Assembly: GCF_013267195.1 (NCBI RefSeq)
Contig: NZ_CP053941.1
Span: 1,488,001-1,552,000 of the forward strand
DNA from: Halorubrum salinarum
GTDB taxonomy: Archaea; Halobacteriota; Halobacteria; Halobacteriales; Haloferacaceae
Length of the DNA stretch: 64,000 nucleotides
Reading direction: 5' to 3'
The position numbers and the translations under genes were made by a program. Shown here one piece after another: positions 5,961 to 7,985 of the stretch (position 1 is its first letter; every line of letters starts with the position of its first letter). A model generated the notes under the pieces. It made no database searches. It was not told where the DNA came from and saw only the letters and a list, made by a program, of their open reading frames with translations.

Positions 5961-7100
5961 TTACTCCTCGAATCCCTCTTCCCACCGGAACGTCCCGTTC
6001 CGCTGGACGACCTCGCCGTCGACCTCCATTCGCGAGTCGGCGCTCACGTCCGTGATCATGTCGACGTGGACCGCGCTGTCGTTGCCGGACTCCCCCTCGG
6101 GGAGGCAGGCGTCGTAGGCGCGGCCGACCGCGAGGTGGACGGTGTCGCCCATCTTCTCGTCGAAGAGGATCGAGTCGGTGAACCGGTCGATGCCGCGGTT
6201 CATCCCGATGCCCAGCTCGCCCAGCCGCCGGGCGCCCGCGTCGGTGTCGAGGATGTCCGCGAGCGCCTCTTCGCCCGACTCGGCCGAGAAGTCGACGACC
6301 TCCCCGCCCTCGAACGCGAGGCGGACGTTCCGGACGCGCGTCGCGTCGATGGTCATCGGCACGTCGAAGAAGACCTCGCCTTCCGTGTCGTACGGCGCCG
6401 TGAACACCTCGCCACTCGGGAGGTTGTGCGAGTCGTACGCGACGGAGGCCGCGGAGTTGACCGCGGTGCGGCCCGCGATCGACATCCGCACGTCGGTGTC
6501 GGGCGCGTCGTCGCGCTCGGTGACGATCCGGACCTCCTCGCCCGCGTCGAGCACGTCTTTCATCTGCGCCATCTCCTCGGCGAGCGACTCCCAGTCGCGG
6601 AGGACGGCGTCGTAGACGAAGTCGCGGTACTCCTCGTAGGCCATCCCCGCCTGCTGGGCGAGGGAGCGGGTGGGGTGGACCGTCGACACCCAGTCGGTGT
6701 CCATCCGCGCCTCGCGGACGCCCTTGCGCGCCGTCGCGTACGACTGCCGGGTCTGTCGAGCGACGTCCGCCGACGCGGTGGTGTTTCGCCCGCCCCCGAT
6801 CCGGAGGTAGGCGTCGGCGGCCTCGAAGATCGCGCGGTCGACGGCGGGGTCCGAATCGAAGTCGTCGGCCTCGACGTCGCCGTCGGTCCCGGCCTCGACG
6901 CCCTTGAGGTAGGCCCGGGAGACCTCGCTCGACCCGTACAGCGTCGTGACGTTCGCCCCGCGCTCGCCGAGCGCCGCGGCGACCGCGACGCCCAGTTCGT
7001 GGGCGTCCTCCGCCACGCTCACGACGACGTCGTCGCCGGCCTCGACCCGCGCGCTCCAGTCGACGAGCACCTCGGCGTGCTCGCGTACGCGTTCGTCCAT
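5961..7100 (-). CDS. M29 family metallo-aminopeptidase
   Basis: Cytoplasmic aminopeptidase of the thermophilic AmpS/AmpT (M29) type that removes N-terminal residues from peptides. The two-metal site is visible in the C-terminal half: Glu in SGEVFTAP, Glu in RLGELGIGMN, His in DTVHLAVG, and the His and Asp of AVHVDM. The ATG at 7100 gives about 379 residues, normal for the family. An upstream in-frame extension lacks similarity, and a possible TATA element (GATTTA at about 7125-7130) lies a leaderless distance before 7100. It converges with metY. Confidence 0.87.
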   Translation of the reverse strand: MDERVREHAEVLVDWSARVEAGDDVVVSVAEDAHELGVAVAAALGERGANVTTLYGSSEVSRAYLKGVEAGTDGDVEADDFDSDPAVDRAIFEAADAYLRIGGGRNTTASADVARQTRQSYATARKGVREARMDTDWVSTVHPTRSLAQQAGMAYEEYRDFVYDAVLRDWESLAEEMAQMKDVLDAGEEVRIVTERDDAPDTDVRMSIAGRTAVNSAASVAYDSHNLPSGEVFTAPYDTEGEVFFDVPMTIDATRVRNVRLAFEGGEVVDFSAESGEEALADILDTDAGARRLGELGIGMNRGIDRFTDSILFDEKMGDTVHLAVGRAYDACLPEGESGNDSAVHVDMITDVSADSRMEVDGEVVQRNGTFRWEEGFEE

Positions 7101-7216
7101 TACGCGGTGTGTCGTGGAGGAGCGGTAAATCGGTGCCGGGACGGTGATCAATCACACGTAATCGAGGGCGCGACATCCCTCGCCGACGCGTCGACCACTT
7201 GTTCTGTCGGACCTGC

Positions 7217-7482
7217 GAAAAACACCGCCAAAGCCCCAGCCGCGAGGGCGGCGCACGCTCGCTGCGGTCCTCAGTCGTTCGCTCCGCTCACTCCCTGCGG
7301 TCCTTACGTCGCCTGCGACCCCCTCACGACTGCCCCTTTGAGTCCCACCCCGCCCCGCACAGCACCTCGTGCCTCCCCAGCCTCGTCGCTGGCGCCGACG
7401 GCGCCAGCGACTCCCTCGCGCGTGCGACTCGCGACCGCCTTCGGCGGCCGCTCGCCGGCACGCGCCACCGCGCTATTTAAAT
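7217..7482 (-). ncRNA. possible structured non-coding RNA unit, or repeat block
   Basis: Positions 7101-7508 hold no credible protein gene. On the minus strand there is an isolated TATA-like box (ATTTAAATAG, 7472-7481) with no coding sequence downstream, then about 225 nt rich in perfect hairpins, then a run of five T (7218-7222). The clearest stem-loops are 7385-7411 (12-bp perfect stem, 3-nt loop) and 7431-7451 (9 bp with one G-T pair). The minus strand also carries the blocks GGGACTCAAAGGGGCAG and GGCTGGGGCTTTGG, and the direct repeat GGACCGCAG. I recall similar blocks as recurring intergenic sequence in haloarchaea, but cannot verify this. Read as one unit, promoter, structured body and T-run suggest a transcribed RNA. 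Confidence 0.35.
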
Positions 7483-7508: not shown

Positions 7509-7985
7509 TCACTCGCGCTCCCCGTGAATGGCCTCAAAGAGCCCGACCGCGAGCAGCGCGACGCCGCCGAGCCCGCCGCCGAGCCTCGCCAGTCCGAAGA
7601 GCGGGGTCCGGTCCAGCCGCTCCCGCGAGTAGCTTCCGAGGACCCTGTACGACTCCCCGTCGACGCGCAGGTCGTCGGTCCCGGCGAGCCGGTCGGCGCA
7701 GTTGGCGTCACCGAGCGCCCACTCCCCGGCGGTCGAGGTGCGTTCGACGAGGAGGTCGACCGATCCGGGCGCGACCCGATACCCCCGGATCGAGACGTTG
7801 CGCCCGTCGGCGAGGGCGACCGCGGCGTCGGCGCAGCGCGCGGGAAGGGCGGCGGCGTTCACGGTCGCGTGCTGGTCGAGCCCCGCGCCCGCCCGAAACG
7901 TCGCCTCCCAGCCGACGACGCTCACGTCCGCGGCGGCGGCGAGCAGGAGGAGGGCGCCCGGGACGGCGAGGAGTCGGCGGTCCAT
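7509..7985 (-). CDS. hypothetical membrane-anchored protein
   Basis: Protein of 158 residues that I do not recognise. The N-terminus (about 5-22) is a strongly hydrophobic alanine/leucine segment that could be a signal anchor. A second hydrophobic, glycine-rich helix lies at about 132-150, just before the C-terminus. The region between is soluble, presumably extracytoplasmic, with two cysteines (in PARCAD and DANCAD) that could pair. Composition and codon use are ordinary for the genome. It has its own start at the ATG at 7985, and no neighbour hints at a role. Confidence 0.6.
   Translation of the reverse strand: MDRRLLAVPGALLLLAAAADVSVVGWEATFRAGAGLDQHATVNAAALPARCADAAVALADGRNVSIRGYRVAPGSVDLLVERTSTAGEWALGDANCADRLAGTDDLRVDGESYRVLGSYSRERLDRTPLFGLARLGGGLGGVALLAVGLFEAIHGERE

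Follow-up and report, generated by a model that had tools for sequence, protein, structure and literature searches.

The window, a stretch of 64,000 nucleotides of the Halorubrum salinarum genome, contains at positions 7221..7471 of its minus strand what we read, with a probability of roughly 0.55, as one chromosomal copy of a non-autonomous mobile repeat that occurs throughout the haloarchaea and in which a folded single strand is the working part. The family is best read as a mobile, structure-selected repeat related to an RNA (or ssDNA) module of plasmids. The copy was delimited by homology using the R1 model, which was built from the copies of this genome, with the window copy included in its alignment, and which fits the window copy end to end (206 bits, E 4.6e-42). 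The same stretch is covered by homology to ~40 other copies in the genome. The copy is composed of a hairpin (P1), a second hairpin (P2), a G-rich linker and a core hairpin (P3). It is flanked by the 3' end of a minus-strand gene of 158 aa (7509-7985) and, on the other side, by a minus-strand gene starting near 7100, which we take from our own reading rather than from a search to be aminopeptidase-like.

Folding of the minus strand of the window copy as RNA gives the three elements P1, P2 and P3, with a folding energy (z -2.96) matched by 1 of 200 dinucleotide shuffles. P1 (7420..7463, minus strand) is supported by compensatory changes in nine of its ten pairs and is 96.5% paired in a helix count over the copies of this genome. 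It takes in the stem at 7431-7451 that the initial annotation described as perfect. On the minus strand one of its pairs is G-U, so the stem is perfect as RNA and imperfect as a DNA palindrome. P2 (7385..7411, minus strand) is the perfect inverted repeat GTCGCTGGCGCC...GGCGCCAGCGAC already recognised as a stem-loop. Its stem length and sequence co-vary among the copies as judged by eye, and it is absent from the consensus fold because its length varies. The G-rich linker contains GAGGCTGGGGAGG (7372..7384, minus strand), which is invariant or nearly so in an alignment of 37 copies of this genome (A1). P3 (7229..7345, minus strand) is a class-wide core hairpin of ~115 nt, identified by the R2 model and by compensatory changes. 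R2 is the P3 model and fits the window P3, which is one of its 57 training rows, with 84 bits (E 2.2e-18). P3 is one stem with the strands CAAAG-GGG-CAG... and ...CUG-GGG-CUUUG, and it has a symmetric GGG/GGG loop and tandem G-A internal loops. Its strands correspond to the two blocks noticed earlier, GGGACTCAAAGGGGCAG and GGCTGGGGCTTTGG, both of which were found in place. The structured body of the initial annotation thus exists in its two named hairpins, but its largest helix, P3, had been overlooked.

The fold was analysed in A1 and in an alignment of 57 P3 sequences from across the class (A2). Compensatory changes in the stems, which had been proposed as a check, were found in both. A1 has 58 pairs with 96.4% of the cells paired, and 34 pairs have changes on both sides; A2 has 25 pairs with 90.6% paired, and 24 are compensatory. 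Slid controls were paired at 26-47% (A1) and 30-43% (A2), and none of 500 shuffles attained the observed pairing values in either alignment. The excess of G-U over A-C (58 to 22 in A1, 51 to 28 in A2) indicates that it is the minus strand of the window that folds. Within P3, the inner helix consists of 2-bp steps parted by tandem G-A/A-G pairs, and the tandem G-A is retained in 33-35 of the 37 copies and across the class. The P3 core GACGYAAGCACC...GAGGAGCGCAGCGAG is near-invariant between families. Judged from these sequence comparisons, the structure is real, widespread and under selection. Some changes of the fold, at the window locus and another locus, resemble whole-helix cassette swaps among orthologous copies, so the compensatory cells may not all be independent events. 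Stable GNA triloops are present in 19 of the 37 copies. Hairpins of ssDNA typically show such triloops and tandem GA as well, and the fold therefore does not prove an RNA form.

BLAST located ~40 matching places in the genome, none of them outside the 2.94-Mb contig C1, with 74-83% identity to the window copy over most of its length. At E<=0.01 the P3 model gave 60 matches; the 49 strong ones all lie on C1, and the weak matches include three on C2/C3. The best full-length paralogue of the window copy is 83% identical, arguing against a recent burst of copies here. The copies are intergenic, and the 33 classifiable ones lie in 11 convergent, 17 co-directional and 5 divergent settings. No bias in gene orientation of the kind required of a 3' UTR or leader element was found here or in other genera, and such an element was rejected. 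No partner gene recurs beside the chromosomal copies, where there are just orthologous loci and common protein families. An IS200/IS605 omega RNA or PATE, which would adjoin or derive from a tnpB element, was rejected, with no recurring protein beside the copies. A protein-coding repeat was also rejected, since the copies have mixed lengths modulo 3 and none of the frames stays open in every copy.

The suggestion that similar blocks recur between genes in haloarchaea as a family was borne out across the Halobacteria. The copy count per genome, which had also been proposed, is ~50 here and, with the P3 model, 101, 147 and at least 150 in sibling genomes. A DNA query of the locus matched 52 of 52 congeners, in some of which the flanking gene alone is among the matches listed. 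R1 matched 117 of 148 members of the family and 150 of 194 members of the class, and R2 matched 39 of 43 class members and none of 204 genomes from elsewhere in the phylum. Named holders are Haloarcula, Natrinema, Natronococcus, Halosimplex, Halonotius, Haloparvum, Halolamina and Halobaculum. The window copy does not score above any gathering threshold of Rfam (release 15), with only chance matches at permissive thresholds, in keeping with the earlier description of the element as undescribed. The element was likewise not found in the literature searched by sequence words and topic, and a DNA search of phages gave no match to the window repeat or the plasmid form.

Some sister species have the window locus occupied and others have it empty, and copies at orthologous loci turn over slowly. 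At the window locus, the copies of six other species have different helix sequences and yet the same fold. Three of these six (L043, L044 and L047) have two 3' units and the window copy has one; its 3' tail (GGTGTT..., 7165..7228, minus strand) is fused to the second 3' unit, which is still in tandem in sister species. Among 78 copies, a second 3' unit is present in 42, mostly 57 nt on. In several species (G010, G048, G011) the site of the window copy holds a conserved gene of ~270 aa instead, between the same two flanking genes. P3 also varies by insertion. An insert of ~54 nt with two hairpins (GCGTTCACGAGAGC..GCTCTCGTGAGCCAATCAGAACGC..GCGTTCTGATGA) occupies one and the same position within P3 in two species, in the copy at C1:1105596-1105897 of this genome (L040/L017) and in genome G022 (L042). 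Further copies (L032, L033, L044, L050) have other hairpins inserted at different positions in the loops, resembling expansion segments.

A P3 query matched 68 haloarchaeal plasmid records, and a plasmid search with the window copy itself gave no match. The plasmid P3 is located 500-600 nt upstream of a gene for a 'DNA-binding protein' of ~290 aa and points away from it; the OB fold of this protein is similar to replication factor A (RPA-like). P3 forms the 3' end of a structured non-coding plasmid region of ~600 nt. The conserved interval of ~670 nt matches, wholly or partly, 164 plasmid records, as well as 111 of the 194 genomes of the class; between families, identity over its first ~200 nt is commonly 85-94%. 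Plasmid loci were not part of the training set of R2, and the model locates P3 in 20 of the 24 plasmid loci searched, down to E 5e-22. The fold of the plasmid region, obtained from 34 sequences, has 204 pairs with 94.6% paired, and 46 pairs are changed on both sides. The part before P3 has 31 two-sided pairs and 119 cells, compared with shuffle maxima of 20 and 40. The ratio of G-U to A-C is 280 to 78 in ~5200 cells, indicating that the folded strand is the same strand as in P3. In 39 of 42 loci, both copies on contig C3 of the present genome among them, the region has the OB-fold gene as its immediate, divergently oriented neighbour.

In the mobile-repeat reading, transposases of the host genomes would spread the copies in trans. 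The folded strand would act most likely as RNA, through read-through or from an unmapped promoter, with ssDNA the less likely acting form. A shared trans-acting factor would bind the folded strand, which would explain why scattered copies all keep one fold. The first candidate for this factor is the plasmid OB-fold protein, a candidate binder by association of neighbourhood only. Tentatively, the plasmids may hold a novel type of large folded nucleic acid, either an ornate RNA of ~600 nt or an archaeal single-strand promoter or origin structure, that works with the adjacent RPA-like OB-fold protein. The short copies of its 3' domain on the chromosomes of most haloarchaea, which reach up to ~150 per genome, might then be recognised by the same protein or machinery.

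The same plasmid arrangement could also be read at the DNA level. The repeat would then be an ssDNA hairpin of replication or transfer, bound by an HUH or an OB-fold/RPA-like protein, and the ~600-nt plasmid region would be an origin or leading-region structure, presumably similar in geometry to Frpo, the ssDNA promoter of F-like plasmids. The adjacent and divergent RPA/SSB-like gene agrees with this, as do the GNA triloops and tandem GA, the identity of the folding strand with the template strand of the OB gene, and the lack of a TATA box between the OB gene and the fold as judged by eye. However, the many G-U pairs of the plasmid region are more natural for RNA, and the sense-strand RNA fold beats its shuffles by more than the DNA fold (z -2.96 vs. 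-1.61), leaving a DNA-level element a serious but doubtful alternative.

The ends of the repeat bear on a further alternative, in which the copies are discrete sRNA genes of ~225 nt, each with its own TATA promoter and T-run end and acting in trans. The initial annotation had proposed such a discrete RNA with an orphan promoter and a terminator, and the sequences it named, the ATTTAAATAG box (7482..7473, minus strand) and TTTTT (7222..7218, minus strand), are both present. Just upstream of the 78 copies, a TATA-like motif is enriched at -23..-12 with an A+T pile-up at -21..-9; it occurs in the last 30 nt before 37 copies and in the next 30 nt upstream of 7. The covarying fold on the same strand, the intergenic setting and the slow turnover at orthologous loci are also consistent with sRNA genes. 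However, archaeal transcription starts ~25 nt after the TATA box, and the motif is ~10 nt too close for a promoter, so that the start would fall inside P1. The motif recurs in the same orientation at +30..+60 in the 3' tail of 21 of the 78 copies, so that it behaves like an end motif of the element, and the box at 7473..7482 is read as the left end motif. TTTTT follows 3 of the 78 copies, and that at 7218..7222 is peculiar to the window copy and no feature of the family. The left partner of P3 is of three kinds: P1 with P2 (in the genus and its relatives), an inverted second P3, or neither. The paired P3 elements are head-to-head in 28 cases, spaced by 26-37 nt, compared with one tail-to-tail case, and this spacing leaves too little space for two promoters. 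By eye, no such TATA motif is seen in other genera. With the motif at both ends, the rare T-run and the mixed gene orientation, the proposed promoter and terminator are not supported, and discrete sRNA genes are unlikely.

The mobile-repeat reading was further examined by analysis of the termini. Window-type elements have ATTTATAAACGARC-like motifs in direct orientation at both ends. Terminal inverted repeats (TIRs) were not found in the window-type copies, the end motifs being direct and not inverted, nor were target duplications, the two flanks of a copy resembling each other no more than flanks taken from different copies. Without TIRs and target site duplications, the window-type copies were not assigned to the MITE class, and we infer their mobility from copy number, context and presence or absence. 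In several lineages, TGTTCAGATA and TATCTGAACA flank P3 at about -47/+47 (single) or -34/+35 (pairs). Direct repeats of 8-11 bp are present in 8 of 33 cases, compared with 7 of 640 shuffled flanks. The IS6/IS240 transposons of Halonotius have identical ends and 8-bp duplications around transposase genes. The P3 elements of Halonotius and of MAGs are IS6-type MITEs, with TIRs and duplications that match the autonomous transposon; the GGNNNTGTTCAGATA ends and 8-bp duplications of IS6/IS240-family MITEs are common to Halonotius and some MAG P3 forms, whereas the window-type element lacks such ends. Comparison of these termini suggests that the Halonotius transposons probably mobilise the local P3 MITEs. 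The IS6/IS240 transposons of Halonotius G073/G094 (L251, L253, L259) have GGNNGTGTTCAGATAAG at their ends, and their 8-bp duplications are clear.

The copies spread in the manner of non-autonomous mobile elements, yet they are not dead. The initial annotation had allowed for an insertion-like distribution that would show only a dead mobile repeat; the distribution is insertion-like, but the repeat does not appear dead, since pairing is kept in 96% of the cells among copies differing by ~20%. A dead or purely selfish MITE family, with hairpins merely repaired into palindromes or gene-converted between copies, would fit the insertion-like distribution, the MITE ends of some lineages and the whole-helix cassette swaps, but it is very unlikely, since palindrome repair alone would remove the G-A/A-G loops that are kept in the copies and class-wide, and the P3 core is near-invariant between families.

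Small structured mobile repeats are known in bacteria, including BOX/RUP of Streptococcus pneumoniae (PMC3049150), REPINs (PMC3116915) and the RU-1/ERIC type (PMC2229807, PMC2759123). They resemble the haloarchaeal repeat in having tens to hundreds of short intergenic copies with conserved stem-loops, in being modular, and in being mobilised in trans without a gene of their own. In contrast to them, the haloarchaeal repeat is archaeal and class-wide rather than species-level, has a far longer core hairpin with tandem G-A motifs, and shares its core with the ~600-nt plasmid region. The PATE, SMR and MITE repeats of Haloquadratum are haloarchaeal and transposase-free (PMC3119063). SMR-A, compared by description only, is ~110 bp with inverted ends and near P3 in length, whereas PATE/SMR are described as DNA repeats without a covarying fold and lack the target duplications present in IS6-type P3 elements (PMC3119063). 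The plasmid relative resembles GOLLD, ROOL and OLE in its length of ~600 nt, elaborate fold, non-coding nature and extrachromosomal carrier (PMC12286853). In contrast to these RNAs, it is paired with an OB-fold gene and is haloarchaeal only in the collections searched. Homology of the plasmid form to GOLLD, ROOL or OLE was rejected, as there is no sequence relation and no Rfam match at E<=0.1.

A structured element that most of the sampled haloarchaea carry, with up to ~150 copies per genome, was thus missing from Rfam and the literature searched. Through it, chromosomal repeats are connected with a conserved module of plasmids that has an RPA-like gene, and it offers an entry point for studying how plasmids are maintained or transferred, how genomes evolve and, possibly, a new class of large archaeal RNA. 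Annotators gain a model for stretches now left blank or called spurious small ORFs.

The plasmid module also occurs in other arrangements. In the second module on C3 of the present genome (35500-41500, L331), which is split, the 5' part (1587-~2050) is without P3, and another 3' part, P3 included, lies ~2.5 kb downstream. On plasmid PHS2 of Halobacterium salinarum R1, P3 (72013-72126) is present without the OB-fold gene and neighbours an HTH gene and a hypothetical gene. On a Natrinema thermotolerans plasmid, a small 'hypothetical protein', DVR14_24500, is annotated at the P3 end and is likely a spurious ORF caused by the repeat.
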